Shown here piece after piece: positions 14,473 through 28,364 of a stretch of DNA of 64,000 nucleotides. A program made the position numbers and the translations under genes. The DNA lies in assembly GCA_023053545.1 (NCBI GenBank), contig JAKZAN010000064.1:62001-126000 (forward strand), read 5' to 3'. The notes beneath the pieces are model-generated. The model was not told the origin of the DNA. It ran no database searches and saw nothing but the letters and a program-made list of their open reading frames with translations. This DNA is from Lepidurus packardi (lineage: Eukaryota > Arthropoda > Branchiopoda > Notostraca > Triopsidae). Each line of letters starts with the position of its first letter. Positions within the stretch are counted from its first letter, which is position 1.

Positions 14473-15119
14473 GCATCAAAGCCAATCTAGCACAAACCAT
14501 TCAAAACCTGCCGCAAAATGTCACGCTTGTCGCGGTTTCAAAAACAAAGCCTATCGCCGATTTAATGGAAGCATACGAAGCAGGCCAGCGCATTTTCGGG
14601 GAAAATAAAATTCAGGAAATGACCGATAAATTCGAGCAAATGCCCAAAGACATTCAGTGGCACATGATCGGGCACGTACAGAGCAACAAGGTCAAATTCA
14701 TGGCGCCGTACGTGGCTTTAATTCATGGCGTTGACAGCTTCAAACTCTTGCAAGAAATCAACAAACAAGCACAAAAGAACAACCGAATCATAGACGTTCT
14801 ACTCCAAATTCACATCGCCGAAGAAGAAACAAAATTTGGATTCGATGCCCAAGAAGTAACCGAATTGCTAAACTCAGCCGATTATAAAACACTGTATCAT
14901 ATTAAAGTAAAAGGTCTAATGGGGATGGCTACTTTCACTGATAATCAATTACAAATACGAAAAGAATTCACAAGCCTAAAGACATTATTTGACACTTTCA
15001 AAAACCAACATGGCTTCGAGATTTTGTCAATGGGTATGTCAGGCGATTACAAACTCGCTGTGGAATGTGGCAGCAACATGGTGCGCATCGGAAGTAGTAT
15101 TTTTGGATCACGAAATTAA
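14469..15119 (+). CDS. YggS-family pyridoxal phosphate homeostasis protein
   Basis: This 216-residue TIM-barrel protein binds PLP and helps keep free PLP and amino-acid pools balanced. The PLP-lysine lies in LVAVSKTKPIADLMEAYEAG (near residue 25). Further family signatures are FGENKIQEM, WHMIGHVQSNKVK and LSMGMSGDYKLAVECGSNMVRIGSSIFG. The gene starts inside the last codons of the DUF1015 gene (ATGA overlap) and ends a few bases before the nuclease gene, so three genes likely share one mRNA. Confidence 0.94.
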   Translation: MSIKANLAQTIQNLPQNVTLVAVSKTKPIADLMEAYEAGQRIFGENKIQEMTDKFEQMPKDIQWHMIGHVQSNKVKFMAPYVALIHGVDSFKLLQEINKQAQKNNRIIDVLLQIHIAEEETKFGFDAQEVTELLNSADYKTLYHIKVKGLMGMATFTDNQLQIRKEFTSLKTLFDTFKNQHGFEILSMGMSGDYKLAVECGSNMVRIGSSIFGSRN

Positions 15120-15126
15120 ATAATAG

Positions 15127-16488
15127 TTGTACGCAATACTTGACATAGAAACCACCGGAGGCCAATTCAACGAGGAAGGCATCACCGAAATCGCCATCTA
15201 TAAATTCGATGGTCATGAAATCGTGGACCAACTCATCAGCTTGGTGAATCCAGAAAAGCCGATTCAACCGTTTGTCGTGAAATTAACCGGCATCAACAAC
15301 GCAATGTTGCGAAGCGCTCCAAAATTCTATGAACTCGCCAAATCAATACTGGAAATTACACAAGATTGCATTTTAGTCGCCCACAACGCAACATTTGACT
15401 ACCGCATTCTGAGAACAGAATTCCGCCGATTGGGTTATGATTTTCAATCAAAAACACTTTGCACCGTCGAACTTGCACAACAATTAATACCAGAGCAACC
15501 ATCCTACAGCCTTGGCAAATTGGTACGCGCCCTAGGTATCCCAATGGCCGACAGACACCGCGCGTCTGGCGATGCACTCGCAACCGTAAAGCTTTTTCAG
15601 CTTCTGCTTGCTAAAGATTTGGAAAAAGTAATCGTCAAAGAACTCATCAAAACCGATATCGAAAAAGGCGTCGAACCCAAATTCGTCGACATGATTCACA
15701 ACGTCCCATCCAAAACGGGCATCTATTATGTCCACAAAGAAGATGGCACCATGATTTATATTGGCAGGAGCAAAAACATCAAAAAACACGTCAACCAACA
15801 TCTAATTGGCGATTCGAAAATATCAAAAAAGTTGCAAAGCGAAGTGTTCACCATCACTTACGAAGAAACCGGCAGCGAACTCATTTCCATTTTGAAAGAA
15901 ATTGAAGAGATTAAAATAAACCGACCGCCAAACAACAAAATTCCAAGGCGACCGCGCGAACACCGATGGGGCTTGTATGCAGACGAAAATCCAGCAGGCT
16001 ATTTGGGAATACGAATCGGACCCACCGATGCCACACGCCGCGAAATCACCTCGTTTGTGTCCGAGCAAGAAGGCCGCTTAACCTTGCAACGCATCACAGC
16101 CGACTTCGAATTATGCCCAAAAATCAACCAACTCGAAGAAACAGTTCCCTGCTCAAAAGTGGCTGCCCAAAAATGCAACGGCGCCTGTGTCAATAAAGAA
16201 GAAGTATCCGACTATAATGCACGCGTCGAGAAATTCATCGAACGCAATATTTTCTACGGGCGCAAAATAATGTTAGTCGACCGCGGGCGTTCCATTTCAG
16301 AGCGCAGCGCAATTTTGATCGAAGATGGCATCCTAAAAGGCTACGCATTCTACGACCTAAACCACCAAATCAGCAACATCTCCATCCTGCACAACATCCT
16401 GATCCCGCTGCAACACAGCCGCGAATCCATGAACGCAATCCGACTCTACGTTGCAAAAAACAAGGCACTTCGCGTCATTTCGATTTAA
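15127..16488 (+). CDS. DnaQ-type exonuclease fused to GIY-YIG (UvrC-like) domain
   Basis: Residues 1-165 form a DEDDh 3'-5' exonuclease like DNA polymerase III epsilon: ILDIETTGGQF (Exo I), LVAHNATFDYRIL (Exo II) and HRASGDALATVKL (Exo III with the catalytic His). Residues ~195-270 form a GIY-YIG nuclease domain (KTGIYYVHKEDGTMIYIGRSKNIKKH) as in UvrC N-termini. The C-terminal ~180 residues resemble the UvrC-like/Cho extension, including a Cys cluster (CPKINQLEETVPCSKVAAQKC). The likely role is DNA repair nuclease. Translation starts at TTG 15127, 7 nt after the previous gene; no better start exists. Confidence 0.88.
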   Translation: MYAILDIETTGGQFNEEGITEIAIYKFDGHEIVDQLISLVNPEKPIQPFVVKLTGINNAMLRSAPKFYELAKSILEITQDCILVAHNATFDYRILRTEFRRLGYDFQSKTLCTVELAQQLIPEQPSYSLGKLVRALGIPMADRHRASGDALATVKLFQLLLAKDLEKVIVKELIKTDIEKGVEPKFVDMIHNVPSKTGIYYVHKEDGTMIYIGRSKNIKKHVNQHLIGDSKISKKLQSEVFTITYEETGSELISILKEIEEIKINRPPNNKIPRRPREHRWGLYADENPAGYLGIRIGPTDATRREITSFVSEQEGRLTLQRITADFELCPKINQLEETVPCSKVAAQKCNGACVNKEEVSDYNARVEKFIERNIFYGRKIMLVDRGRSISERSAILIEDGILKGYAFYDLNHQISNISILHNILIPLQHSRESMNAIRLYVAKNKALRVISI

Positions 16489-16638
16489 GTTGTTTGGAGC
16501 TATTCGCGCTTTCGTTGCAACGCCTCGCACAAATTTTGTTTTTAAATTGTCACAAAACGAGCTCCTAAAGTCGCTGTTTTGCGCCATTAAAAACTTAAAT
16601 TTGCCGCTGCGGGGTTTCCACTCAATCACGGCTAGGCT

Positions 16639-17556
16639 ATGAAGAACCTAATTACAATTATCGGCCCAACAGCAATTGGCAAGACCAAACGAAGCATCGA
16701 ATTGGCCAATCATTTCAAATGCCCAATCATTTCTTGCGATTCCCGACAGTTTTTCAAAGAAATGTCAATCGGAACAGCTGCGCCAACAACAGAAGAACTT
16801 TCAGCTGCAACCCATTATTTCATACACAACAAATCGATTTTTGAGCCGTATACCGTTGGCGATTTCGAGAAAGAAGCCATCGCATTACTCGATGATTTGT
16901 TCTCAAAACACGATTACGTCGTGCTCGTTGGCGGTTCTGGATTATACGTGGATGCCATTTTGAAAGGATTTGACGAGTTTCCAGACGTTTCCGAAACCAT
17001 CCGGCAACAAGTCCGCGCCAACTACGAGTCAAACGGCATTGAATGGCTCATCCAAGCGTTGCGCACGCACGACCCAAAATACACCGACACCGTCGATCAG
17101 GGCAATCCACAGCGCATGATGCGCGCTTTAGAGGTTTGCCTGCAAAGCGGACTGCCCTACTCTTCTTTCTTGAACGTGAAAAAGAACAGCCGAAATTTCA
17201 ACCCAATTCTGATTGGCTTAGAAGCAGAAAGGCAAACAATATACGACCGCATCAACACCCGTGTCGACTTGATGATGGCAACCGGTCTACGCGCTGAAGC
17301 GCAATCGCTGCACGAACACCGCCATTTGAACGCCCTGCAAACTGTGGGTTACAAAGAGCTTTTTCAATTTTTGGATGGTGCAATTTCTTTGGAAGAAGCC
17401 ACAGCATTAATCAAGCAAAATACCCGCCGATTCGCCAAGCGGCAACTCACGTGGTTTAAAAACCATTACGAAGCAAAATGGTTTGATTATGAAAGCGACG
17501 TTACAGCAATGATTGAATTTGTGGAAGATTATACTGGTAAAGGCGAGGTTGGTTGA
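16639..17556 (+). CDS. miaA: tRNA dimethylallyltransferase MiaA
   Basis: MiaA transfers a dimethylallyl group to N6 of A37 in tRNAs reading UNN codons, giving the substrate that MiaB and MiaE modify later. The 305-residue protein has the P-loop GPTAIGKTKRSIELA, the DSRQFFKEMSIGTAAPT motif, GGSGLYVDAI near residue 97, and the C-terminal QTVGYKELFQFL and QNTRRFAKRQLTWFK blocks. The stop codon at 17554-17556 directly abuts the first repeat fragment of the cassette island, so the island border lies exactly at the end of this gene. Confidence 0.96.
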   Translation: MKNLITIIGPTAIGKTKRSIELANHFKCPIISCDSRQFFKEMSIGTAAPTTEELSAATHYFIHNKSIFEPYTVGDFEKEAIALLDDLFSKHDYVVLVGGSGLYVDAILKGFDEFPDVSETIRQQVRANYESNGIEWLIQALRTHDPKYTDTVDQGNPQRMMRALEVCLQSGLPYSSFLNVKKNSRNFNPILIGLEAERQTIYDRINTRVDLMMATGLRAEAQSLHEHRHLNALQTVGYKELFQFLDGAISLEEATALIKQNTRRFAKRQLTWFKNHYEAKWFDYESDVTAMIEFVEDYTGKGEVG

Positions 17557-17580
17557 AAGTCGGGAGACTTTGTGGAGCTA
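17557..17580. repeat. attC-type half-site fragment at island edge
   Basis: The 24 bases right after the miaA stop (AAGTCGGGAGACTTTGTGGAGCTA-like, here with TGTGGAGCTA at the end) repeat the arm-plus-core-distal part of site C (22405-22428) and a fragment at 25892-25916. It marks the downstream border of the island. Confidence 0.6.
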
Positions 17581-17582
17581 GC

Positions 17583-17761
17583 GGTCGGCCGAGTTTTGAA
17601 ACGCAGTTGTTTCTGAAAATTTCTTTGTATGGTTGTATAAACGGCGCATTTTAGCATTTTGGAGCAACCATCTTACTTCGAAATTTAGCGTTGCTTAGAA
17701 GCAGTTTATACGTGTCTCAAACTTTGTTTTTGACGGGAAAATGGGGTTTATTCACAGCCTG
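17583..17761 (+). mobile_element. Internally deleted relic of the IS at 19276-20985
   Basis: Bases 17583-17645 match transposase positions 19516-19578. Bases from about 17646 to 17761 match 20870-20985, including the whole right end and terminal repeat (ending CACAGCCTG). About 1.3 kb of the element between these parts is missing, and the left end is gone too. Several point differences show the relic is older than, or from a sister of, the intact copy. It cannot encode a protein. Confidence 0.85.
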
Positions 17762-17892
17762 ACGTTTTGCAGCTTGGCGATGTGGCGAAGTTCGGAACCG
17801 ATTGTTTTCTGTTCAAGATAAAATTTCTTGCGAAATGTAAACGTGAATTTACTGCAAAATTCGCAATCTTGCCAAACGCCTGTTGTGTGTAG
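17762..17892 (-). repeat. attC-like site A (after the HEPN cassette)
   Basis: This 131-bp imperfect palindrome starts 4 nt beyond the stop codon at 17897. Arm 17771-17789 and the reverse complement of 17860-17878 agree at 13 of 19 positions. The gene-proximal core reads (minus) TACACACAAC. The far end begins with ACGT, where the IS relic is joined. Confidence 0.7.
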
Positions 17893-17896
17893 TTTT

Positions 17897-18646
17897 TTAT
17901 TGGTATTTTTTGACAACATTTGTTACTAAATCTTGTATAAATCCGATTGCCTTATAATCTAAAATTTCTACAGTATTTGGGTGTGCACAAGAGTTTCGAA
18001 CACCCAATTTTTCATCTAATATTTTTCTGACATCATTAGTTGTTAATTTTGAAACTCGTAATAATTCAATGAAATCAGATTCTTTAATATTGCTAAAATC
18101 ATCTTTAATTGATATCGTTATCTTTTTGTATTTGCCGTGAGTCTGAATTGCCAAATTAAAAGCAGTCAGATTTTTAGGGATAAGTATGAATTCATAAATT
18201 ACATCCATTGCTAAAAGCCAGGTCATTACTATTGAAGCTCTAAATGCTTTTATTTCGAAGCAACTAATAGCTTCCTCAAGGTACCTTTTTTGTTCTGAAC
18301 CAGTAAGCTCAATAATTAAATCTCTTAATGTGTTTGAGACTTCACGTTTATGTTTTATTCCAAGATAAGTATCGTCTAATTCTTTTTTAGCAGTTCTATG
18401 AAATGATAGCCCTTCTTTAGTTTCTATCAAAATTTTAGGTTTTGATTTTTTTAAGCGTGAGATTTCTGATGAAATATTGGAAGGCTTTGTCAATGAATTT
18501 TTTTCAAATTCATTTGAAATATCATTAATTTTAAAAAATTGTCTGTTATTTTCTATGCAAAAAAAGAAAGCTATTAACTTGACTTGATCTTTTTTAGTTT
18601 GATTATCAAAATCACTTACTGTTTCTAGTAAATCGTGAACTGTCAT
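17897..18646 (-). CDS. Winged-helix plus HEPN-like protein (cassette gene)
   Basis: The 249-residue protein has no name I recognise. The N-terminal half looks like winged helices (FFKINDISNEFEKN, then SNISSEISRLKKSKPKILIE, then EGLSFHRTAKKELDD). The C-terminal half is helical, with a long amphipathic helix (LEEAISCFEIKAFRASIVMTWLLAMDVI) followed by R217-N-S-C-A-H222. That is the RX4H motif of HEPN RNases. By family analogy it could be an RNA-cleaving effector held in check by its partner. It follows its upstream neighbour by one base. It is AT-rich and lies within an attC-bounded cassette. The HEPN call rests on motif and helix pattern only. Confidence 0.62.
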   Translation of the reverse strand: MTVHDLLETVSDFDNQTKKDQVKLIAFFFCIENNRQFFKINDISNEFEKNSLTKPSNISSEISRLKKSKPKILIETKEGLSFHRTAKKELDDTYLGIKHKREVSNTLRDLIIELTGSEQKRYLEEAISCFEIKAFRASIVMTWLLAMDVIYEFILIPKNLTAFNLAIQTHGKYKKITISIKDDFSNIKESDFIELLRVSKLTTNDVRKILDEKLGVRNSCAHPNTVEILDYKAIGFIQDLVTNVVKKYQ

Positions 18647-18647
18647 A

Positions 18648-19244
18648 TTAAGAATTAGTAGCGATTTCGTGTTCTATATAGTTTTCTCCAGCTACAGTAA
18701 CTTTTAGATTTTCTGTAATTGCGGTGTCGACCCAACCTTTTCTGTTTTTAGTGTCAAGTAAGCTTTGGTAAATGTTTGGAACTTTTTGTGATACGTGTTT
18801 GTAACAAGTATAAATATGATTTATTCCAATGTTCTCTTCTCCAATTACTCTTTCAAGATAATAAAGGATTACAATATTTTTTTCGAAATTATTTTTGGCT
18901 TGATATCTAGCATAGAAATCCTTAAGACTCTCTTTTCCGTTTGAAACTAAATTCAAGCTTGTAACTAGGCTATATGATTTACTAGAACCACCTGAATTTT
19001 TTGGTTTTGTTGAAGTCGGTTTTTTATTCGTTATTTTGGACTTACTTTCTTCTACAATTATATCAGGCGCTTCAAGCGAAGCTAAAGTCGGATGCTTTGT
19101 ATTATTTGATTCGAAAGCATTGCTTGTCGGCACCAAACTGTATCTATCGAGCAAATACTTGAAAACTCTTAATTTAGATTCATCATGTAAATCTTTCATA
19201 AGTTCGTGGCATTTGAAAATTGCTTCTAATTCTTTATCTATCAT
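18648..19244 (-). CDS. Partner of HEPN-like protein, winged-helix domain (cassette gene)
   Basis: The 198-residue protein has an N-terminal helical segment (about 1-40). A low-complexity Ser/Thr/Lys linker follows (about residues 50-95). The compact C-terminal domain begins NGKESLKDFYARYQAKNNFEKNIV and ends in KVTVAGENYIEHEIATNS. The latter resembles a small winged-helix module seen in many Bacteroidetes accessory genes. It is the first gene of a two-gene cassette, its start lying about 25 nt from the cassette core. It could be a sensor, antitoxin or DNA-binding partner for the next gene. No function is established. Confidence 0.6.
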   Translation of the reverse strand: MIDKELEAIFKCHELMKDLHDESKLRVFKYLLDRYSLVPTSNAFESNNTKHPTLASLEAPDIIVEESKSKITNKKPTSTKPKNSGGSSKSYSLVTSLNLVSNGKESLKDFYARYQAKNNFEKNIVILYYLERVIGEENIGINHIYTCYKHVSQKVPNIYQSLLDTKNRKGWVDTAITENLKVTVAGENYIEHEIATNS

Positions 19245-19275
19245 GTTTTCGTTTTTTTAAAATTACACACAACGT

Positions 19276-20985
19276 CAGACTGTGAAAAAACCTTCCACCG
19301 TCCTCAAACAAATATAGCAAAAAACTTGTACGAAATACCTGAACTAACTATATTTATAAATGCAATACATCCCAGGGATTTCCCGCAATCAGTTTAATTT
19401 GAGCAGTCTGGAAGATACCATTTCTGCTGACAATCCAGTGCGTTTTATTGACGCATTTGTTAATAGTATAGATTTAGAAAAGCTCGGGTTTGCGGTAAAG
19501 GTGCTGAAAACTGAAGGTCGGCCGAGTTTTGAAACGCATTTGTTTCTAAAGATCTATTTGTATGGGTATATAAACGGCATCAGAAGTTCCAGACGATTGG
19601 AGAAGGAGTGCCAACGCAATTTGGAAATGCAGTGGTTGGTGGAAGCACGCCGGCCGAACTATCACTCAATAGCTGATTTTAGGAAGGACAACCCAAAAGC
19701 GCTGCGGCAGCTCTTCAAATTGTTTGTGTCGTTTCTGAAAGATGCAAACCTAATTGGTGGCGAAACCATCGCGATTGACGGCACAAAATCCCGAGCGCAC
19801 AATGGGAAAAAGTCCAACTTCAACCAAAAGAAAATCGACAAACACTTGGCCTATATCGAAGCAAAAACGCAGGAATATCTAGCGGCATTGGACCAAAACG
19901 ACAGCCAAGAAAAATCAACGGCTGTTACAAACATCCAACAAAAACTCGAGCGTTTAAAGCACAACAAGATCAACTATGAACTGCTTGAAACGCAGTTAAA
20001 AGCCAGCGGCGAACCTCAAATCAGCACCACAGATTCAGATGCCAGAGCGCTATTGGTTCAAGGGCAAGTGGTCGAGATAGCCTACAATATTCAGGCTGCG
20101 GTGGATGACAGGCACAACCTGGTTGTGGCCACGCATACCATCAATCGGAACGATAGAAACGCACTTTCGGCCATTGCCATCGAAGCCAAGGAAAACTTGG
20201 AAGTAGAGACTTTTACGGCCTTGGTTGACAAAGGCTACCACAACGGACGCGAACTCGACACCTGCAAAAACCACGACATCACTACGATTGTTGCGGTTCC
20301 CGATCAAGGCAAGAGCAACGAAAACGGTACGCAACCTGAGTATTTTGTATCGAAATTTACCTACAACAAAGAGTCGAATACCTACACCTGTCCGCAAGGA
20401 CAAACCCTGAGCACGACGGGGCGTTGGCACAAGAAAACCGGCCGAACCGAGGAAAGTGGCTATCAGTTCCAAAAGTACCGCACGCCAGCCTGCAAAACCT
20501 GTCCTGTGAAGGATTTATGCACCAGTAGAAAGGGCGGAAGGGAACTGGATCGCAGCCAATATGCCGAGGCAGTAGAAGAGAACCTCGAGCGCTACCGAGC
20601 CAACGGCCAACAGTATCGAAAGCGGCAGGAAATCAACGAACACATTTTTGGCACGATTAAGCGAAAATGGGGCTACAATTACACGGATTTAACAGGATTG
20701 GAGAAAGTAAACGGCGAACACAGCTTGATTATGTTGGTTTACAACCTCACACGCAGCATCAATATCCTCGGCGTGCCCGATTTACTGCTGAAACTCAAGA
20801 CCTGGAACTCGCCTTACAAGAGAAGGGTCTTGTTTTTGATAAAAACGACTTGTTTAAAGTTGTTTTTAGCTCATTTCGCATTTTGGAAAAACCAACTTAC
20901 TTCAAAATTTAGCATTGCTTAGAAGCAGTTTATGCGTGTCTCACACTTTGTTTTTGAAGGAAAAATGGGGTTTATTCACAGCCTG
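19276..20985 (+). mobile_element. IS1182-family insertion sequence, complete
   Basis: The element is 1710 bp. The left end CAGACTGTGAAAAAACC (19276-19292) and the reverse complement of the right end CAGGCTGTGAATAAACC (20969-20985) agree at 15 of 17 bases. ACGT is duplicated on both sides (19272-19275 and 20986-20989) as the target repeat. One transposase gene fills it. Removing the element would join the cassette start (minus GTTGTGTGTAATTTT) to attC-like site B. Confidence 0.9.
19360..20922 (+). CDS. IS1182-family DDE transposase
   Basis: The 520-residue transposase has the DUF772 N-terminus (MQYIPGISRNQFNLSSLED, then LKIYLYGYINGIRSSRRLEKEC). The catalytic DDE triad is visible at about D140 (IAIDGTKSRAHNG), D290 (LVDKGYHNGREL) and E427 (INEHIFGTIKRKWGY). 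A Cys cluster (CPQGQTL and CKTCPVKDLCTS) lies in the insertion domain. The frame is intact, so the element may be active. Expression probably starts from a TTG/TATATTTA-like promoter around 19327-19357 inside the left end. Confidence 0.93.
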   Translation: MQYIPGISRNQFNLSSLEDTISADNPVRFIDAFVNSIDLEKLGFAVKVLKTEGRPSFETHLFLKIYLYGYINGIRSSRRLEKECQRNLEMQWLVEARRPNYHSIADFRKDNPKALRQLFKLFVSFLKDANLIGGETIAIDGTKSRAHNGKKSNFNQKKIDKHLAYIEAKTQEYLAALDQNDSQEKSTAVTNIQQKLERLKHNKINYELLETQLKASGEPQISTTDSDARALLVQGQVVEIAYNIQAAVDDRHNLVVATHTINRNDRNALSAIAIEAKENLEVETFTALVDKGYHNGRELDTCKNHDITTIVAVPDQGKSNENGTQPEYFVSKFTYNKESNTYTCPQGQTLSTTGRWHKKTGRTEESGYQFQKYRTPACKTCPVKDLCTSRKGGRELDRSQYAEAVEENLERYRANGQQYRKRQEINEHIFGTIKRKWGYNYTDLTGLEKVNGEHSLIMLVYNLTRSINILGVPDLLLKLKTWNSPYKRRVLFLIKTTCLKLFLAHFAFWKNQLTSKFSIA

Positions 20986-21120
20986 ACGTTATGCCGCTTG
21001 GCGATGTGGCGGATTAAGGACGCCTAAATTTTCGGTTAAACACTAACTTTGCAAGTACAAAACCAACTTTAAATTAAGCCTAAACCCGCCATATTGCCAA
21101 ACGGCGGTTAGCAGATGTTG
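20986..21120 (-). repeat. attC-like site B (after the lipoprotein cassette)
   Basis: Arm 20996-21012 (GCTTGGCGATGTGGCGG) and the reverse complement of 21086-21102 agree at 14 of 17 bases, all differences being transitions. The gene-proximal core reads (minus) ATCTGCTAAC, 14 nt after the stop codon. The middle shares GGCTTAA and AAGTTGGTTTT with sites D and E. The IS interrupts the far core at ACGT. Confidence 0.75.
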
Positions 21121-21126
21121 TAATTG

Positions 21127-21618
21127 TTATTTGTTCGTTTTCGTTACTTCGTCATATTTCAATTCCACTTTTCTGTCGCCGTCAAATTCCACAATTACCA
21201 AGTTAGAATTTACTCCAATAATTTTTCCGTCTGTTAGTTTTCCTTTTCTTTTGAAAACTACGCTATCTCCAACATTCAAAGTTATTTTTGCGTTTGCCTC
21301 TGTTGATACATTTATTAGCGTGTTTTGTGTTCCCCAAACATCGCCAATAATTTTTACTTTTTTCCCGTTATCTTTTACATAAACTTTTACATTTCGCAAA
21401 AATTCGCCTTCGTATTTTTTGGTCAAATTATCAACTGCTTGTTCCATTGCGTCTGCATCAGCTTCGGCAACCGCTTCTACTTCACGAGTTAATAAAGTAT
21501 ATTTTTTACTATCATCAACATTTCTGTTTCCGATTGTTGTTAAATCTCCAATTCTGTTCCAACTTCCGCAACTTGCTAAAGTCAAAGTTAATCCTAAAAG
21601 TATAAGGCTATTTTTCAT
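21127..21618 (-). CDS. Small lipoprotein (cassette gene)
   Basis: The 163-residue product has a lipoprotein signal with lipobox TLASC (Cys17). Next comes a helical segment rich in Glu/Asp/Ala (EVEAVAEADADAMEQAVDNL). The C-terminal beta-rich part (VGDSVVFKRKGKLTDGKIIGVNSNLVIVEFDGDRKVEL) looks like a small SH3-like barrel. No known family was recognised. It is the second gene of a two-lipoprotein cassette, 9 nt after its partner, and its stop codon lies 14 nt from the attC-like core. Confidence 0.75.
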   Translation of the reverse strand: MKNSLILLGLTLTLASCGSWNRIGDLTTIGNRNVDDSKKYTLLTREVEAVAEADADAMEQAVDNLTKKYEGEFLRNVKVYVKDNGKKVKIIGDVWGTQNTLINVSTEANAKITLNVGDSVVFKRKGKLTDGKIIGVNSNLVIVEFDGDRKVELKYDEVTKTNK

Positions 21619-21627
21619 TTTTATATT

Positions 21628-22062
21628 TTAATTGTTTACTAAAAGAGTGGTGGTTAAATTCGTTCCTTTTACGAAGTCGTTATTATAACGTGAAAACGTG
21701 GTTTTCAAAGTGTAGTTTGTTCCAGATTGTGTAAATACCTCAAAATAATATCTTTTTGGTGTTGCAGTCGTTACTAAAGTATTCAAATTGAAATTCACTA
21801 AACCATTTGCGTCACTTGTTTCTTGTTTAATAATTATCGGTAAAGGTGCGGTTGGCGAGAAAGGTGTTTCAAACATCATTACAATGTAATTCGGTTTTAC
21901 AACTCCTGTTGGCGTTGCAACTGTGAATTTTGCCCAAGTATTAATTGTTGTTCCACCACTTGTATTTGTGTCTGTAGTGCTTGAACTGTCATCTTTTGAA
22001 CAAGAAATTGTAAAAATTGAAACTAATGCTAAAATTGTTGCTTTGAAAAAATTTGGTTTCAT
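21628..22062 (-). CDS. Small lipoprotein with beta-sandwich-like domain (cassette gene)
   Basis: The 144-residue product has a lipoprotein signal (lipobox FTISC, Cys21). A Ser/Thr/Asp-rich linker typical of exported Bacteroidetes lipoproteins follows, then a ~100-residue beta-rich domain (PNYIVMMFETPFSPTAPLPIIIKQ, ANGLVNFNLN, YYFEVFTQSG). This resembles a carboxypeptidase-regulatory-like or Ig-like fold, but no family was identified. It leads a two-gene cassette; a promoter-bearing repeat lies 165 nt upstream. Confidence 0.72.
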   Translation of the reverse strand: MKPNFFKATILALVSIFTISCSKDDSSSTTDTNTSGGTTINTWAKFTVATPTGVVKPNYIVMMFETPFSPTAPLPIIIKQETSDANGLVNFNLNTLVTTATPKRYYFEVFTQSGTNYTLKTTFSRYNNDFVKGTNLTTTLLVNN

Positions 22063-22226
22063 TAAAATAAATTATTTTTTTGCTTACTTTATTTTATGCT
22101 TTTTTGGTTTAAAAAGTCATTTTTGGCTTTCGGTTGTTCAGCTAATTTCCCGCCGTTAAAAAATATTTTTTAGTTTTATAATTTTGTTGATGTTCCTTGT
22201 TTCTACTCGGTTGCTCAACAATATCT

Positions 22227-22363
22227 GCTAACTTATATATACACGAAACAAACTCTCGCCTATCACTCCAACTACAGGCAGATATGCGAAGGTCTGCAAT
22301 GCGGAATTATTATCCGCTCGTGCTTCTAATTCAAATATAGATAAATATTCTTACAAAAACCAA
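22227..22363 (-). repeat. Promoter-bearing repeat R1 upstream of lipoprotein cassette
   Basis: On the minus strand it contains -7 box TATATTTG (22339-22332) with a TTG 21 nt upstream. It ends in the cassette-start core GTTAGC (22232-22227). It shares with R3 the stretches AGGCGAGAGTTTGTT and GTATATATAAGTTAGC, and with R2 TTGGAGTGATA. The rest of 22063-22226 shows no gene; it holds an AT-rich leader with the near-palindrome AAAAATATTTTTT. Confidence 0.65.
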
Positions 22364-22390
22364 GCTGCTTTTAATTGCTTTTGATTTTGG

Positions 22391-22531
22391 ATGTATTTTT
22401 CTGCAAAGTCGGGAGACTGGCGGAGCTGCAATTTCCAGCACTAATTTCATAAAACGTGCAAGCTTGAATTTAGCACTTCACCGTCAGAAAAGCAAGAAAG
22501 ACCAATTTTGCAAAACAGCGATTAGCAGAAG
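22391..22531 (-). repeat. attC-like site C (after the hydrolase cassette)
   Basis: Arm 22399-22412 (TTCTGCAAAGTCGG) and the reverse complement of 22502-22515 agree at 11 of 14 bases, differences all transitions. The core near the gene reads (minus) TTCTGCTAAT, 8 nt past the stop codon at 22535. Confidence 0.68.
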
Positions 22532-22534
22532 CTT

Positions 22535-23935
22535 CTATTTTGTTTGTTGTTTGATCCACTTTGCAATTTCTTCTAATGCCGTTGGTGAAAAAGTTTGTTC
22601 TATTGTTTTATATTCGTCTGGGGAGCCTGTTTTGCATTCTTGAAACAAGTGATTTAGATTCGGGAATTCTATCGTGGTTACCTTTTTATTGCCTCCTTTT
22701 CTCAATGCTTGCTTTATTGCTTCTAAATTTTCTTTTGATGGTACTTGCAAATCTTTGGCTCCGCTAATTGCTAGAACTGGACATTTTACTTTTTCCAATG
22801 CAAATGCTGGATTATACTTTATAAAATATTGCATCCAAGGATTTGCAATTTGTTCCACTTGTACTTTCACAAAATCTTCTAGGCTCATTCCTTCTGGTAT
22901 TTCAGTATTTGGATTGTCTTTTAGTGCTTGCTTAATAAAGTCTGTCAAGTCATTATTCAGTTTTTCCAGATTAGTTGATTTGTTCACAATGTCAAATACT
23001 TTTCTATTCTCCAATTTGCTTTTTTGCAAATCTTCATCGCTAGCTCCTGATGCTTTACCAATTAACTGCTGTTGTAATAAAAGTATCTGGTCGCCTTTTA
23101 TCCCCGTTCCAGCCAACAATACTATAAATGCCACATCTTTTGATTTACTGGCAACCATTGGTGCAATTAGTCCACCTTCACTGTGTCCGATTAATCCAAT
23201 TTTCTTTTTGTTTATTTCTTTTCTCGTTTGCAAGTATAAAATTGCGCTTTCTACATCAGTCGTAAAATCGGCAGAAGTCGCAGTTTTAAAATCTCCTGTT
23301 GATGATGCCGTTCCCCTATCGTCGTAACGCAAAACTCCAATGCCATTTTTTGTTAAAAAATCTGATAAAACAAGGAAAGGTTTGTGCCCTACTAATTCTT
23401 CGTCTCTATTTTGTGGTCCACTGCCACTAATTAAAATTACCACAGGAAAAACGCCAACTTTGGTTGGTAACGTCAATGTTCCTGCTAAATTTATTCCTGC
23501 CTTTTTATTTTCGAAAATTATATCTTCAGAATAATAAGGATATGGCTTTATTGGTTCTTGTGGTCTAATAAGCTTTTCTTTTTCGATTTTCTCTTTAGAT
23601 AAGTTCATTGGAAAAGATAGTCCACCTTGCTTAAACGTCCCAACTATAACCTGGTCTTGTCCCAAGGTTCCTTCATATTCAATTTTCGCACTGGCAATCG
23701 TGATTTTCAAGATAGAATTTCCAAAACTTGTAGTTGTTGTGGGAATTCCTTTTGCTCCTTGGTCTGGACTATCCATTGTTGAACTTAAACCATTGTCAGT
23801 TTTTGTGATATTAAATACAAGTCTTAATTGTATTCCTTGTACTTTTAATGCACCATTCCATTGTCCTGTAACGTCTTGTGCTGATGCCGAAACTGAAGTT
23901 AAAAGTGCAATCAGTAAAACCGAAAATATTCTCAT
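22535..23935 (-). CDS. Secreted alpha/beta hydrolase (cassette gene)
   Basis: The 466-residue protein has a cleavable signal peptide (cut after about VSASA-QDV). An N-terminal beta domain of ~120 residues precedes an alpha/beta-hydrolase domain of the S33/BAAT type. The nucleophile elbow is GLIGHSEGGLIAP (Ser near residue 251). The oxyanion region is VVILISGSGPQNRDEE; the acid lies in AISGAKDLQVPS and the catalytic His in FPNLNHLFQECK. It should act as a periplasmic esterase or peptidase. Such hydrolases also occur in chromosomes outside cassettes. It is bounded by R2 and site C. Confidence 0.85.
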   Translation of the reverse strand: MRIFSVLLIALLTSVSASAQDVTGQWNGALKVQGIQLRLVFNITKTDNGLSSTMDSPDQGAKGIPTTTTSFGNSILKITIASAKIEYEGTLGQDQVIVGTFKQGGLSFPMNLSKEKIEKEKLIRPQEPIKPYPYYSEDIIFENKKAGINLAGTLTLPTKVGVFPVVILISGSGPQNRDEELVGHKPFLVLSDFLTKNGIGVLRYDDRGTASSTGDFKTATSADFTTDVESAILYLQTRKEINKKKIGLIGHSEGGLIAPMVASKSKDVAFIVLLAGTGIKGDQILLLQQQLIGKASGASDEDLQKSKLENRKVFDIVNKSTNLEKLNNDLTDFIKQALKDNPNTEIPEGMSLEDFVKVQVEQIANPWMQYFIKYNPAFALEKVKCPVLAISGAKDLQVPSKENLEAIKQALRKGGNKKVTTIEFPNLNHLFQECKTGSPDEYKTIEQTFSPTALEEIAKWIKQQTK

Positions 23936-23992
23936 ATCAATTTTGTTGTATTAATTTGTTGTTTTTGTTTAGTGCGTCTCCGTAAAATTTTT

Positions 23993-24105
23993 GTTAACTC
24001 ATTCCTACACGAAACACATTTGTTATCACTCCAATTATAGGCGAATATGCGAAGGTTTAGCATACGCAATTATCTACTTATACTTTCAATTCAAATATAA
24101 GTAAA
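23993..24105 (-). repeat. Promoter-bearing repeat R2 upstream of hydrolase cassette
   Basis: On the minus strand TATATTTG (24099-24092) gives the -7 box. Shared words with R1 include CCTTCGCATAT, TTGGAGTGATA and GTTTCGTGTA. It ends in GTTAAC (23998-23993), the apparent cassette-start core, 58 nt before the hydrolase ATG. Confidence 0.6.
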
Positions 24106-24140
24106 TTTATGCAGCGCACTAAAGTATCATTTTATGTTGC

Positions 24141-24281
24141 CTACGTTTGAGGCTTTGTTTTCAGAAAAGTCGGACGATTAAAGAGGCCTAAACTTCTTTT
24201 TAAACACTGACTTTTCAAGTAGAAAACCAACTAAAATTAAGCCGAAAACCCGACATTTCTGCAGACCGCTGTTGTAACTAG
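24141..24281 (-). repeat. attC-like site D (after the small membrane-protein cassette)
   Basis: Arm 24162-24173 (CAGAAAAGTCGG) and the reverse complement of 24250-24261 agree at 11 of 12 bases. The gene-proximal core reads (minus) TACTAGTTACAAC, starting just after the stop codon at 24284. The middle shares GGCTTAATTT and AGTTGGTTTT with site B. Confidence 0.72.
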
Positions 24282-24283
24282 TA

Positions 24284-24724
24284 TTAAAAAAAGAAGTTAT
24301 CTAATTCCGTTTTTAGTTTTCGATTTTCCTTTTTCGCTTTTTGATCTAGAAAGTAGCCAATTCCAGCTCCTATTAAAAGACCAGCTAATGCTGATAACAT
24401 ACCAAAAAATACTGAAGCTAAAGCGCCAATCGTCATTCCGATGTATAAGTTATAATTTGGAATAATAATTGAAAATTCTAATTTCAAAAAATTCAAAAAA
24501 TTACTTAATTCCTTTTTTACATTGACATTTTCCTTCTCGATTTCGAAGTTTTTAAAAATCACATTTAGTTCTGAATTTATCCTTTGAATTTGCGATTCAT
24601 TAAAGTTCTTGTGCTTTATTTCTTCTAAAACCCGTACGAATTTTTCAGAATTATTTTTGTTCTTACTGTTTTCAGTTTTTGCTCTGAAATCATTTAAAAA
24701 ATCGATTACTTGTGATATTTCCAT
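24284..24724 (-). CDS. Small protein with C-terminal membrane hairpin (cassette gene)
   Basis: The 146-residue protein has a charged, probably helical N-terminal 80 residues. Two closely spaced, Gly/Ala-rich hydrophobic segments follow (YIGMTIGALASVFFGML and SALAGLLIGAGIGYFLD), then a basic tail. The hairpin suggests insertion in the inner membrane with both ends in the cytoplasm. No family was recognised. The start codon lies about 18 nt from the cassette core and the stop codon touches site D, so the gene almost fills its cassette. Confidence 0.68.
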   Translation of the reverse strand: MEISQVIDFLNDFRAKTENSKNKNNSEKFVRVLEEIKHKNFNESQIQRINSELNVIFKNFEIEKENVNVKKELSNFLNFLKLEFSIIIPNYNLYIGMTIGALASVFFGMLSALAGLLIGAGIGYFLDQKAKKENRKLKTELDNFFF

Positions 24725-24740
24725 TTTTTCAAAATATTAG

Positions 24741-24878
24741 TTACTACGTTTTGGCGCTGGACGAGGTTTGGGATTAAAGATGCGTGTTTTTTCGGTAAGC
24801 ACAAATTTTCCGACTACAAAACCGACTTTCCTTTAAGCCAATTACGCAAATCGCTTGTAGTGGCTGTTAGCTGTTCGG
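24741..24878 (-). repeat. attC-like site E
   Basis: The minus-strand core AGCTAAC contains the stop codon (TAA, 24869-24867) of the preceding gene. The middle shares GGCTTAA, AAGTCGGTTTTGTA and ACCGAAAA with sites B and D. The outer arms pair less well than in the other sites. The far end is ACGTAGTAACTAATA, the start of the next cassette. Confidence 0.65.
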
Positions 24879-25685
24879 TTGTTTAAGTTCTGGAAATAAA
24901 TTTATCACTATTTCTACAAATTCTCTATTTTGTATCGGTTTATTAGTTTCAAATTCCGTTAGCTTCTTTTTAAAAGTGCCTTTTCGCGAATCTAATTCCA
25001 TTATTTGTCTAGTTCGTTCATAATGTTCCATTGCTTTTAAAATAATTTCACCACTTTCTCTATAAAACTGAATTGCATTATTGATCACACCAAGTAAATT
25101 AGGAAAGTTAAAACTTATTGGCTTATTCATTTTTAAAGAAAGTATCACGAAAAGTTCACGACTTTTTTGATTAGCTAAAGCAAATTTTTCTTTACTATTT
25201 AATATAACTGCAAATCTCAAAAGTGACCAGCGTTCTAATTGACTTTGGGATTGAATTTTTTTATAAAGCTCTGCTACAAATATTTCATCCTCCTTTTTTA
25301 TAGAATAGTTTCGTTCAAATAATTGGTTTATGGAATAGATTAAAAAACTACTTTTCTCAAAAAAATAATTTTCGGCTAACAACATAAAAACAGTTTTTCC
25401 TGCTTCATCAGTACAATTTACTTCTAAATTAATATTTGTTGATCTTAAAAGGAAATATGAAAATTTATCTTTTTCTCTATTTTTTAAAATCCCGCATAAA
25501 ATATATTTAGGGTCAATTCCAATTATTTTATAGAAGTCTAAACTGTCATTTAAGTATTTAGTTTCCTCTATATTTAATTTGTCAACTATTCCTTGACCGG
25601 CAAAATATTCTGCGGAACAATCTAAATAGTATTTTTCAAGTTCGATGATAAAATTATCAATACCTTGTTTTTTCCAGTAATCCAT
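24867..25685 (-). CDS. Uncharacterised protein (cassette gene)
   Basis: The 272-residue protein is soluble, helical and rich in Glu, Lys, Phe and Asn, without signal peptide or transmembrane segment. The middle (DEAGKTVFMLLAENYFFEKSSFLIYSINQLFE) looks like helical-repeat or ankyrin-like packing, but no repeat is regular enough to name. No known family was recognised. It is the first cassette of the island in the direction of transcription. Its promoter probably lies in R3 (66-140 nt upstream), and its stop codon overlaps the attC-like core. Confidence 0.7.
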   Translation of the reverse strand: MDYWKKQGIDNFIIELEKYYLDCSAEYFAGQGIVDKLNIEETKYLNDSLDFYKIIGIDPKYILCGILKNREKDKFSYFLLRSTNINLEVNCTDEAGKTVFMLLAENYFFEKSSFLIYSINQLFERNYSIKKEDEIFVAELYKKIQSQSQLERWSLLRFAVILNSKEKFALANQKSRELFVILSLKMNKPISFNFPNLLGVINNAIQFYRESGEIILKAMEHYERTRQIMELDSRKGTFKKKLTEFETNKPIQNREFVEIVINLFPELKQPNS

Positions 25686-25750
25686 TTTTGGCGAGTATTA
25701 GGTTAATTTTGGCTTTTTTCTTTTTCGTTCTGTCACTTGGTTTACTGACG

Positions 25751-25845
25751 GCTAACTTATATATACACGTAACAAACTCTCGCCTATCACAACTGCTAGA
25801 GTCTGCTTTTACTTCTAATTCAAATATAGATAAATATTCTTACAA
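25751..25845 (-). repeat. Promoter-bearing repeat R3 at the head of the island
   Basis: It nearly repeats R1: TTTTTGTAAGAATATTTATC and TATATTTG (25828-25821) for the promoter, then AGGCGAGAGTTTGTT and GTATATATAAGTTAGC ending at 25751. It lacks the ~40-bp CCTTCGCATAT section of R1 and R2. Confidence 0.62.
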
Positions 25846-25891
25846 AAAGAAAGCGTGTTTTTATATTATCTGTGGTTGGACTTAGTTCCTC

Positions 25892-25916
25892 AAAATCGGG
25901 AGACTTTGCGGAGCTG
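25892..25916. repeat. attC-type half-site fragment at the other island edge
   Basis: CAAAATCGGGAGACTTTGCGGAGCT matches the right part of site C (22404-22427) and the fragment after miaA (17557-17580). No complementary left arm is present, so it looks like a truncated site that borders the core chromosome. Confidence 0.55.
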
Positions 25917-25944
25917 GTTCTGTTGCGCTCAATGTTTGACGTAT

Positions 25945-26025
25945 TTAGCCCGGATGGAAGCGGCATCCTTTGTTGCGTAGTTTACGAAGCGACAAAGATA
26001 TAGCGGACAGCCGGAAATAGCTCCC
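25945..26025 (+). ncRNA. Flavo-1-like RNA motif, copy 1
   Basis: The segment TAGCCCGGATGGAAGCGGCA, then TCC, a variable hairpin (CTTTGT ... ACAAAG) and AGATATAGCGGACAGCCGG matches a conserved flavobacterial pattern. I recall it as the Flavo-1 RNA motif. Function is unknown. It lies between the island edge and the rprY terminator. The rest of 25686-26056 holds R3, the half-site and that terminator. Confidence 0.6.
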
Positions 26026-26033
26026 ATAAAAAA

Positions 26034-26053
26034 ACCCGGCATTTACCGGGTTC
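26034..26053 (-). terminator. Terminator of rprXY operon (also 3' of Flavo-1 copy 1)
   Basis: AACCCGG and CCGGGTT pair around a short loop. On the minus strand the stem is followed by seven T residues, just past the rprY stop codon. Confidence 0.82.
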
Positions 26054-26056
26054 TAA

Positions 26057-26779
26057 TTAAGCTTGTTTGGGCTCTTTATTTTTAACTACCAATCGGAAGC
26101 CTTCGCCGTGGATGTTTAGAATTTCGACGTCTTCGTCTGGTTTCAAATACTTTCGCAATTTGGCGATGTAGACGTCCATACTTCTAGAGGTGAAGTAGTT
26201 GTCGTCTCTCCAGATTTTAGTTAATGCCATTTCGCGTGGCATTAGGTCGTTTTCAAAAATGGTTAGCATTTTTAATAATTCATTTTCTTTTGGCGACAGT
26301 TTTATTGGTTCTTCATTATCGAATGTTAGAAATCTCAGTTTTGAATTGAGGTGAAACCTTCCGATTTGAAATTCGAAACGAACGTGGTCGTTTTTTGTAT
26401 CGGCAGATTTTCGCTGAATAATGGCTTTGATTTTCATCAATAAAACTTCTGAATCGAATGGTTTATTGAGGTAATCGTCAGCGCCAACTTTGTATCCTTT
26501 TAACACGTCTTCTTTCATAGACTTTGCTGTTAGAAATATAATTGGCACGTCTTTGTTCTTCTCACGAATTTCCTTTGCGAGGGTGTATCCGTCTTTATAT
26601 GGCATCATTACATCCAAAATGCAAAGATCGTATGTGTCCTTTTTGAACTTTTCGAAACCTTCCATACCGTTCTTCGCCAATGTCACATCAAAATCATTTA
26701 GCATTAGGTAATCCTTAAGGATTGCGCCAAAGTTCTGATCATCTTCTACTAGAAGTATTTTCTTATTTTCAGTTTCCAT
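26057..26779 (-). CDS. rprY: OmpR-family response regulator (RprY-like)
   Basis: The 240-residue cytoplasmic transcription factor has an N-terminal receiver domain. The acidic pocket is EDDQ, the phospho-acceptor Asp lies in LCILDVMMPYKDG (near residue 55), and the conserved Thr and Lys are in FLTAKS and DDYLNKPFD. A winged-helix DNA-binding domain is C-terminal (SPKENELLKMLTIFEND and SRSMDVYIAKLRKYL). It sits directly downstream of its histidine kinase with 4 nt between, forming the RprX/RprY pair known from Bacteroides. Targets are unknown here. Confidence 0.93.
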   Translation of the reverse strand: METENKKILLVEDDQNFGAILKDYLMLNDFDVTLAKNGMEGFEKFKKDTYDLCILDVMMPYKDGYTLAKEIREKNKDVPIIFLTAKSMKEDVLKGYKVGADDYLNKPFDSEVLLMKIKAIIQRKSADTKNDHVRFEFQIGRFHLNSKLRFLTFDNEEPIKLSPKENELLKMLTIFENDLMPREMALTKIWRDDNYFTSRSMDVYIAKLRKYLKPDEDVEILNIHGEGFRLVVKNKEPKQA

Positions 26780-26783
26780 AGTA

Positions 26784-28364
26784 TTAATTTATTAGAGGTA
26801 TTTTTATGATAAATATGCTGCCTTTGCCTTTTTCGCTTTCCACGAAAATTTGGCCATTATGATCTTCTACAATTCTTTTAACGTAGGCCAGACCCAGTCC
26901 GTGGCCTTTCACATTGTGAAGATCGCCTGTGTGTTCGCGATAGAATTTCTCAAAAATTCTTTTCTGTGCGACCTTGCTCATTCCTGCGCCTTGGTCTTTT
27001 ATTTTGATTAGGACAAAGTCCTTTATGTTCTCCGTATATATGTCGATTCTTGGCGTGTTTGGAGAATATTTTATGGCATTATCCAGTATATTCACCAAAA
27101 CGTTTGTGAAATGAACATCGTTTAATAATACGGTTGTTCTATTTGCTTTATAGTGCGTATCGATGGTTCCGCCTCGGTCTTCAATAATCAAATTGATGTG
27201 CTCAATGGCTTCGTCTATTGTTTCATGAATGTCATGCGAATCTTTTGATATTTCAAGTTCTTTTTTCTCAAGCTTCGAGATTCTGAGCACGTTTTCTACT
27301 TGCGCGTGCATTCTCTTGTTCTCGTCCCGAATCATTTGAAGATAGCGCTGGGTTTTTTCGAGATCGCCCACAATTTTAGGGTTTCTGATGGCGTCTAACG
27401 CTAAGTTTATAGTGGCTATTGGTGTCTTAAATTCATGTGTCATGTTGTTGATGAAATCTGTTTTGATTTCTGAAATCTGACGTTGTTTAATCAGCTGATT
27501 CAACGCACTTGAATAGGCAATAATAATAATCAATGTAAACACGATTGATAAGACTGTGATGCCAACTAACTCCGAAAACAGGAAACGCTTTTTTTGTGGA
27601 AATGTGACTAAGAGCTGGTATTTGCTATTGCCTTCATTGTCATTAAAGACTGGCACTGCATATGTTGCTTCTTTATCAAAAACAAAATTTTCAGAGTGAA
27701 TCTTGGTGCCTAGTCCGTTGCTGTATATTGCAAATTCGAATGGTGTTTTCACTTCGTATTCGGCCAATTCCTGCACCAACAGTTTTTTTAGACGGTCGTT
27801 TGTAATACGATCCTGCAGTGGCATTGCTGCTACTACGTCGCGAAATGAGATTTCGAATTGGGCATTTTTGAGGATGTCCACATCTCCGGTGCGTTCTGTG
27901 CGACTGTTGGGCGCTAAGATTTCACGAATTTGCGATTTGTCGATATCGTTGTTGTAGATTTCTGTGACCCTTTTGCTGGTGAAACCTTTTGCTTTAAAGC
28001 TGTCTGTTTTTTTGTCAAAGAACGAAGATGGCAATTTGTAATCTTCAGCAATAATACTGTTTGAATATATAATTGTTTCATTAGTAGCAACATTGCGCTG
28101 CGACAAACGAAATTCTAACAGATCGTTTTGTTTTGAAAGACCGCCAAGCGAATCTTTCGATTTCTCATAGCGATTTAGCAAGGTGTAAATTTCTTGGTTC
28201 TTTAATTTCTCAGCAACATTTCCAATAACTTGTGTTACATGATACCGAAACTGTTCTTCATTGTTATTGAAAGAGGAGTTGAACCAATATACTTGCACGA
28301 GAATAATTCCTATAAGGGACAAACTCATCAATAAAACCAACAATCTGAAAAATAACCTATTCAT
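26784..28364 (-). CDS. rprX: Sensor histidine kinase (RprX-like)
   Basis: The 526-residue inner-membrane kinase has TM1 at about 8-28 (LLVLLMSLSLIGIILVQVYW), a ~220-residue periplasmic sensor region, and TM2 near 260-280 (LVGITVLSIVFTLIIIIAYS). The HisKA H-box follows (MTHEFKTPIATINLALDAI). The ATPase domain has the N-box VNILDNAIKYS, the G1 box DQGAGM and the G2 box GHGLGLAYVKRIVE. It phosphorylates the adjacent RprY. The signal is unknown. The pair is probably one operon. Confidence 0.93.
   Translation of the reverse strand: MNRLFFRLLVLLMSLSLIGIILVQVYWFNSSFNNNEEQFRYHVTQVIGNVAEKLKNQEIYTLLNRYEKSKDSLGGLSKQNDLLEFRLSQRNVATNETIIYSNSIIAEDYKLPSSFFDKKTDSFKAKGFTSKRVTEIYNNDIDKSQIREILAPNSRTERTGDVDILKNAQFEISFRDVVAAMPLQDRITNDRLKKLLVQELAEYEVKTPFEFAIYSNGLGTKIHSENFVFDKEATYAVPVFNDNEGNSKYQLLVTFPQKKRFLFSELVGITVLSIVFTLIIIIAYSSALNQLIKQRQISEIKTDFINNMTHEFKTPIATINLALDAIRNPKIVGDLEKTQRYLQMIRDENKRMHAQVENVLRISKLEKKELEISKDSHDIHETIDEAIEHINLIIEDRGGTIDTHYKANRTTVLLNDVHFTNVLVNILDNAIKYSPNTPRIDIYTENIKDFVLIKIKDQGAGMSKVAQKRIFEKFYREHTGDLHNVKGHGLGLAYVKRIVEDHNGQIFVESEKGKGSIFIIKIPLIN

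Follow-up and report, generated by a model that had tools for sequence, protein, structure and literature searches.

The stretch of DNA analyzed here (64,000 nucleotides of contig JAKZAN010000064.1, deposited under Lepidurus packardi; hereafter the window) raises the question of whether the interval between its miaA and rprY genes holds a gene-cassette array of the integron kind and, if so, which recombinase built it. A preliminary description, made from the sequence alone, had seen there an integron-like array without integrase, with seven genes and five att-like sites. The window belongs to an assembly of 108.6 Mb in 344 contigs, and for this reason its flavobacterial contigs probably represent a bacterium associated with a larger organism. 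Our analysis supports the earlier interpretation and confirms the observation behind it in part: the genes and four sites (A, B, D and E) stand, whereas site C is a remnant and insertion sequences (IS) had been overlooked. With a probability of roughly 0.88, we consider the cassette array in the window to be partly decayed and without an integrase, and to belong to an integron-type system of Bacteroidota that is served by a recombinase other than IntI. On a wider scale, an integron-like system for capturing genes as cassettes appears to be widespread in Bacteroidota, and some hospital resistance genes appear to bear its marks.

A DNA search with site B of the window retrieved related sites on two contigs of the same bacterium, C55 and C44. 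On C55, a gene for a 358-residue tyrosine recombinase (C55:67254-68330) lies upstream of a second array and codirectional with it. The earlier proposal to look for an IntI-type integrase elsewhere in the genome thus led to a recombinase heading an array, albeit one that lacks the insert specific to IntI. The window itself has no tyrosine recombinase, as previously stated, the nine hits of a profile search all lying on other contigs. The first C55 cassette starts with GTTAGCTGTAATGC and ends with GCACTACAGCTAAC, which are inverse complements bar one mismatch; these ends were the first sign of the core/inverse-core rule of integrons. Relatives of the C55 recombinase are encoded at 31 loci of Bacteroidota, Ignavibacteria and Ca. 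Tenebribacter. Arrays headed by a recombinase gene occur in related bacteria too, with the layout of recombinase, attI-like site ending ..AGTTR and codirectional cassettes with folded sites of ~121 nt between them.

These folded sites form a family that can be described by a covariance model, hereafter abbreviated as R1. Its 42 training sites come from Bacteroidota and Ignavibacteria, and four of them lie in the window, so that the R1 matches in the window are partly circular. A scan for AAC and GTT enclosing complementary arms (score >=29) found, on the recombinase strand, 30 sites downstream and one upstream, against five and three on the other strand. The scanner requiring arm complementarity gave no hits in one dinucleotide shuffle versus 34 in real DNA at scores >=26, and 38 versus 72 at >=20. 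(A broad version of 85-190 nt, with 4-5 shuffle hits versus 31 real ones, was replaced by a scan of 116-130 nt and then by R1.) All 18 arm pairs show double changes among the 42 sites, a covariation to be read with the caveat that 31 of these sites were picked by the scanner at scores >=26. Double-change cells number 194 versus 61.9 +- 5.7 after shuffling (as many in 0/500 trials), and arm pairing reaches 86.9% versus 33-46% when the arms are slid. On the basis of this covariation the sites are conserved in structure over sequence, as attC sites of integrons are. One arm position carries an A.C mispair in 40/42 sites, and in 108/142 of a larger set. The length from AAC to the crossover G, in 167 sites with both cores, is 121 nt in 69 and 120-124 nt in 135.

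The limits of the cassettes were analyzed in 158 units, namely the neighbouring pairs among 194 sites of at least 35 bits from 36 strand-oriented sources; matches below 35 bits were dropped, together with two loci (L020 and L038) that duplicate L118/L119 and L127. (An earlier cassette count, 109/143, lacked the sites of L019, L026 and L043 and one of L125, which are now added.) Start and end cores are complementary at all six variable bases in 120 of the 158 units, and in 132 if one mismatch is allowed, with permuted maxima for the full match of 11 over all units (2000 trials) and 40 within loci. The two flanks of one site match in only 5/194 sites. Since gene ends match and site flanks do not, genes rather than palindromes are the bounded units, and the inverse core is complementary to the start core of its own cassette, as it is in integrons. 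At five or more bases the rule holds in 81/87 units shorter than 1 kb versus 11/21 units of at least 3 kb, a weakening that would be expected if sites had been missed inside long units. All 128 units whose GTT cores match have A at position 11 of the start core, and in one of them the end matches it. In each of the 21 stretches that gave strong matches, those of at least 35 bits (146 in total) keep to a single strand; the arrays are thus tandem and of one orientation as judged by site strand, gene orientation having been tabulated in the window alone. An all-against-all BLAST of 125 cassettes found neighbouring genes mostly unlike each other, with little sharing between genomes. The first cassettes of L025 and L037, 232/253 identical from the attI core, were considered as evidence of transfer and set aside, since their similarity ends at no site. 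A single start core, GTTATGCCTCACCCT, recurs in cassettes of three genomes (L119, L121 and L137), some core types being common to otherwise unlike cassettes.

In most of two sets of 30 loci, the stop codon of the recombinase gene is followed by an imperfect palindrome and then by ..TATAAACAAGTTR or a similar sequence. We counted these attI-like sites in 59 loci (57 different sequences), comprising 25 of the 31 loci of the relatives, L016, L088-L117 and the plasmid loci L140-L142. A loose core pattern occurs ~65-155 nt past the stop in 57/59 loci (dinucleotide shuffles: mean 23, maximum 30), the AGTTR motif in 53/59 (shuffled mean 9.8, maximum 15) and the combination TATA..AGTTR in 50/59 (0-1 in five shuffles). 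Moreover, where a first site was found, attI and the end of the first cassette have the same core at the six variable bases in 13/15 loci (permuted mean 1.06, maximum 6) and in 9/10 further loci, two repeats being uncounted, which gives 22/25 different loci. An attI-like site thus adjoins the recombinase gene, as attI adjoins the integrase gene in integrons. The first 70 nt contain a TAnnTTTG/TTTA/TTAG motif in 35/59 loci (shuffled mean 9.9, maximum 16). On the Chryseobacterium plasmid L142, three cores (attI after 9071; sites at 11143 and 13529) read GTTGGGAAAAATCG and mismatch their own cassette ends.

What kind of recombinase heads these arrays? The C55 protein matches the integron integrase profile TIGR02249 in two pieces flanking a gap, with 191 of the 265 bits of the cut-off; its best NCBIfam score is 213 bits for NF040815 XerA (cut-off 220), that for XerD being 184 versus 329.6. 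Alignment with IntI1 of R388 and two IntI homologues indicates that the C55 protein and five relatives lack the IntI insert of ~40 residues and keep the catalytic motifs and the C-terminal SPxD. Since the additional domain specific to IntI is the defining part of integron integrases in the definition given by one survey (PMC9668308), the C55 recombinase falls outside that class. A sequence search of PDB placed archaeal Xer, XerA and IntI4 at the top; a structure search with the predicted model (mean predicted local distance difference test score 78.6, predicted template modelling score 0.50) gave the best E-value to the integron integrase 2a3v, followed by XerA, at template modelling (TM) scores that are low (0.42-0.44). 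Homologues at E<=1e-30 number at least 8000, some of which NCBI labels 'site-specific tyrosine recombinase/integron integrase'. In a phylogenetic tree, IntI forms one group (100/100) and 53 rows from recombinase loci need two changes; the IntI sampled were IntI1 and seven relatives at 75-84% identity, and three Xer rows are long branches. Given this narrow sampling, the long branches and the two changes, the tree gives no clear support to the recombinases as a single group apart from IntI.

The sites are widely distributed. Of 31 genomes that carry the recombinase, 28 have R1 sites, with as many as 62 in a single genome; among evenly drawn Bacteroidota genomes, 151/296 have them. A recombinase at E<=1e-80 is found in 32 of these 296, and sites in 31 of the 32 versus 120/264 others. 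A covariance-model search across genomes, as the preliminary description had advised, therefore finds the sites in many of them, beside genes mostly unlike each other.

Against this background, the interval of the window can be resolved into the following features.

25757..25887, minus strand: promoter and attI-like module 1, ending ..TATATATAA/GTTAGC, with no integrase beside it; a repeat of 22313-22398, likened to other attI sites by eye
24866..25756, minus strand: cassette W1, gene 24867-25685 (DUF7829, Pfam); start core GTTAGCCGT, end core in reverse complement GTTAGCTGT, 5/6 by eye
24746..24874, minus strand: att site E, R1 78.9 bits
24271..24747, minus strand: cassette W2, gene 24284-24724; ends GTAGTAACTAATATT and GTTGTAACTAGTATT, 12/14 by script; start core degenerate, GTA
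24146..24279, minus strand: att site D, R1 61.5 bits
22535..24110, minus strand: promoter-bearing unit W3, alpha/beta hydrolase gene 22535-23935 (Pfam)
22402..22529, minus strand: remnant of site C, R1 14.3 bits, E-value 0.35
22233..22398, minus strand: promoter and attI-like module 2, ending ..TATATATAA/GTTAGC
21107..22232, minus strand: cassette W4, two small genes, 21127-21618 and 21628-22062; ends GTTAGCAGATATTG and GTTAGCAGATGTTG by eye
20982..21115, minus strand: att site B, R1 122.6 bits, its right core split by the IS
19276..20985, plus strand: insertion sequence, 520-residue DDE transposase 19360-20922, 4-bp ACGT flanks, in the right core of site B
17882..19273, minus strand: cassette W5, genes 18648-19244 and 17897-18646; ends GTTGTGTGTAATTTT and GTTGTGTGTAGTTTT by eye, the start core taken from the far side of the IS
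17758..17890, minus strand: att site A, R1 81.8 bits, its right core cut by an IS remnant
17583..17761, plus strand: second IS copy, a remnant, at the right core of site A

Open reading frames are present for all seven minus-strand genes previously placed between miaA and rprY, and Pfam names only the two indicated. Of the five sites proposed, R1 accepts A, B, D and E (61.5-122.6 bits) and not C. The within-site pairing that had been claimed is clear for B and weak for A, D and E being recognized solely as family members. In folding as single-stranded DNA, site B clearly surpasses its shuffles (z -2.25), while site A has z -0.77, with 40/200 shuffles equally good; as only site B, folded alone, clearly beats its shuffles, we regard the array as decaying. 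Recognisable core pairs are kept in W1, W2, W4 and W5 (W2 by script, the rest by eye). The two promoter and attI-like modules inside the array, which end with ATATATAAGTTAGC at 25756 and 22232 and have no recombinase, had escaped the preliminary description. The rival idea raised there, ordinary vertical DNA in fixed order, did not hold, for none of the seven genes occurs in any of 30 Flavobacterium miaA stretches. In 18 of these 30 loci rprY lies 81-1331 nt from miaA without these genes, versus 8.5 kb in the window, and thus the array is an insertion relative to the Flavobacterium loci; the other 12 have no rprY within the ~1.5 kb examined.

Neither IS element of the window figured in the preliminary description. 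The transposase matches Pfam PF13751/PF05598/PF01609, and the family (DDE, DUF772 type), which we presume to be IS1182-like, looks like an IS that targets att sites, in which it resembles the IS1111-attC elements. Its end sequence has 12 matches in the assembly, including the window, L015 and L017; of these 12, the eight examined all lie next to R1 sites, at the ACGT within the recombination core. Another repeat, short and palindromic (AAAGTCGGGAGACTTT with GCGGAGCT), is found at both borders of the region and at the promoter modules (17557-17577, 22399-22418, 24160-24179 and 25886-25905), and again in L015 1240-1300. An Rfam scan of window positions 15000-28000 found near the array only Flavo-1 RNAs and no att family: one Flavo-1 RNA (RF01705; 25943-26021, plus strand, 72.1 bits) adjoins rprY, and a second, weak match (16498-16637, minus strand, 24.6 bits, under the gathering score) precedes miaA.

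Marks of the same system are found next to resistance genes. Among the matches listed by a tblastn search of plasmids, full recombinases are on two Chryseobacterium plasmids, one of which has a four-site array. In the two records examined for tet(X3) (pHH1107 and A. baylyi) and the two for blaVEB-3 (both from Klebsiella), a truncated recombinase stretch stands directly upstream of the resistance gene. Immediately after an attI-like stretch, blaVEB-3 starts with GTTAGCGGTAATTT, and its start core is common to blaVEB-1 of a class 1 integron and to blaVEB-18, which follows aac(6')-IIa. The blaVEB-3 and blaVEB-1 records share a single base upstream of the core, and the 938 that follow contain two differences. 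At its end VEB-1 has the core AAACTACCGCTAAC, with the position-11 mismatch of other cassettes, and R1 matches the VEB-1 attC in the class 1 integron with an E-value of 2.5e-12; the att site is lost in the blaVEB-3 records. On the plasmids L138 (4840) and L139, tet(X3) follows a truncated recombinase and the core GTTATGTGCC, and a left half-site with a different core lies past the gene in L138. The gene order xerD-tet(X3)-res-orf1-ISVsa3 has been published in passages that do not call it an integron (PMC7494873), and the same applies to the passages that place XerD recombinases close to resistance genes in Chryseobacterium (PMC11194056). In Riemerella anatipestifer (Weeksellaceae), the relevant part of a 2026 study describes how aph(3')-IVb, with 27 bp on its 5' side and 140 bp on its 3' side, integrates by natural transformation without homology; its authors, rather than R1, liken the folding of the 140-bp tail to attC, find lnu(H) and blaRATA similar and consider the mechanism partly known (PMC13148043).

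Comparison of sequences, namely the anatomy, the arm covariation, the cores bounding genes, the match of attI with the first cassette, the association with the recombinase and the identical VEB crossover base, suggests the following mechanism. A tyrosine recombinase without the IntI insert, encoded upstream of the cassettes and codirectional with them, would join cassettes at an attI-like site (..ATATAAACAA/GTTR) just past its own gene and downstream of a TAnnTTTG-type promoter, from which the cassettes would be expressed. Each cassette consists of a gene between a start core of ~15 nt (GTTRNNNNNNA..) and an end core that is nearly complementary to it; a site of ~121 nt comes next, whose arms would fold in single-stranded DNA. 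In the circular cassette the two core halves would meet and complete the outer stem, exchange taking place at AAC/GTT. The recombinase itself probably performs the reaction on a single-stranded substrate, for which the VEB crossover base may constitute natural evidence bearing on folded-attC recombination, and strand polarity is probably read from the conserved mispairs, A at core position 11 and A.C in the inner arm. The anatomy gives us high confidence that the system works like an integron, even if it fails the strict definition on the IntI domain.

Several results weigh against this reading. In the window, sites D and E fold no better than shuffles, nor does the degenerate site C, and the sequence around 24000 provides W3 with no convincing core pair. 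Among the loci, L031, L036, L039, L041, L043 and L044, being short, incomplete or distant, did not enter the attI counts, the recombinase of L132 has no core under the pattern used, and the attI core mismatches the first cassette in L142 (1/6) and L129 (0/6), with 5/6 in L048. A single cassette pair of at least 150 nt is common to different genomes, at 73%, so that recent whole-cassette transfer is unsupported in this set; start and end cores of tet(X3) differ, and only half a site follows the gene. Cloacimonadota, the phylum of Ca. Tenebribacter (G022) according to NCBI, were tried as a negative control for R1 and rejected, as 36/117 of their genomes have sites, if weaker matches, which leaves no clean negative phylum. 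Our literature search found no recombination assay with such a recombinase. Of 199 sampled genomes in which no recombinase reaches E<=1e-40, 66 still have sites, as one would expect if cassettes were moved by host XerC/XerD or another recombinase, the neighbouring tyrosine recombinase being a passenger. The authors of the Riemerella study, in the part concerned, saw no mobile elements within 100 kb of the integration in R. anatipestifer ATCC 11845 (PMC13148043), which points the same way. We nevertheless judge such an external recombinase improbable, considering the strong association of recombinase and sites across genomes, the attI motif after the recombinase stop in far more loci than in shuffles and the agreement of its core with the first cassette.

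That the sites are canonical attC and the arrays standard integrons whose IntI was missed seems to us quite improbable as well, although the core/inverse-core logic is identical, IntI1 evidently uses the VEB-1 site and the predicted model finds 2a3v first in PDB by E-value, its TM score of 0.42 notwithstanding. The missing insert and the score below the TIGR02249 cut-off, the near-constant length of the sites and the result with R388, whose canonical attC sites give no R1 hit up to E 10, argue otherwise, and the entries described for IntegronFinder 2.0 contain one complete Bacteroidetes integron (Salinibacter), after only In0 previously (PMC9024848). The preliminary claim of an integrase-less integron-like array was thus right in kind, whereas the results do not establish the sites as canonical attC and the recombinase differs from IntI. 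Very improbable, finally, are terminators or non-mobile repeats resembling miniature inverted-repeat transposable elements that accumulate between genes. The palindromes do follow stop codons, are dispersed and are targeted by one IS family in the flavobacterium; yet a repeat would have matched ends, while here it is the gene ends that match and not the site flanks, and the arrays keep to one strand downstream of a recombinase.

The system of the preferred reading, an integron-type one with a recombinase other than IntI, would tend to escape surveys, because integrons are defined in them by the IntI-specific domain (PMC9668308) and the taxon-specific attC models described derive from 11 taxa, none of them Bacteroidetes (PMC8352920). 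We found no published description of the system in the literature searched, which covered neither preprints nor most subscription journals. If the reading is true, about half of Bacteroidota (151/296 sampled), a phylum of major standing in gut, soil and water, would have a platform for capturing cassettes. It would account for the way resistance genes enter Riemerella without homology, for the truncated 'xerD' in front of tet(X3) and for the source of blaVEB cassettes, and would make it possible to test by what means a tyrosine recombinase that lacks the IntI insert reads a folded strand of DNA. We regard as evenly balanced the broader proposition of a second cassette platform, present in about half of Bacteroidota species and at least one other phylum (Cloacimonadota), which would handle folded single-stranded sites without the IntI domain, be older than the IntI insert or parallel to it, and be the origin of cassettes such as blaVEB later found in class 1 integrons.

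How does the system compare with those already known? The Riemerella uptake of aph(3')-IVb, lnu(H) and blaRATA is alike in that a gene with an attC-like tail of ~140 bp integrates without homology, and unlike in that the authors, in the part of the paper concerned, name no recombinase and report finding no integron (PMC13148043). With clusters of attC sites lacking integrases nearby (CALINs), defined by at least two attC and no integrase in the vicinity, the window array shares several sites and no integrase (four sites and no TIGR02249 hit on contig C53, if R1 sites count as attC); it differs in that its sites form their own family rather than canonical attC and that promoter and attI-like modules lie inside the array. 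The C55 recombinase is closest to XerA in NCBIfam score and departs from XerA and XerC/XerD in its extra N-terminal domain, its IntI-like SPxD tail and its place before cassette arrays. With class 1 and chromosomal integrons the system shares its general plan: a recombinase gene, an attI, a putative promoter, cassettes in one direction with folded sites, the core/inverse-core rule and the AAC/GTT junction, the integron core consensus being RYYYAAC/GTTRRRY. It departs from them in its recombinase, which lacks the IntI insert and is codirectional with the cassettes, in its cores of ~15 nt, in its sites of ~121 nt with a sequence family of their own and in an attI that looks palindromic by eye. 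The chromosomal integron of Treponema comes near it in having intI oriented with the cassettes, and differs in that its integrase is a true IntI.

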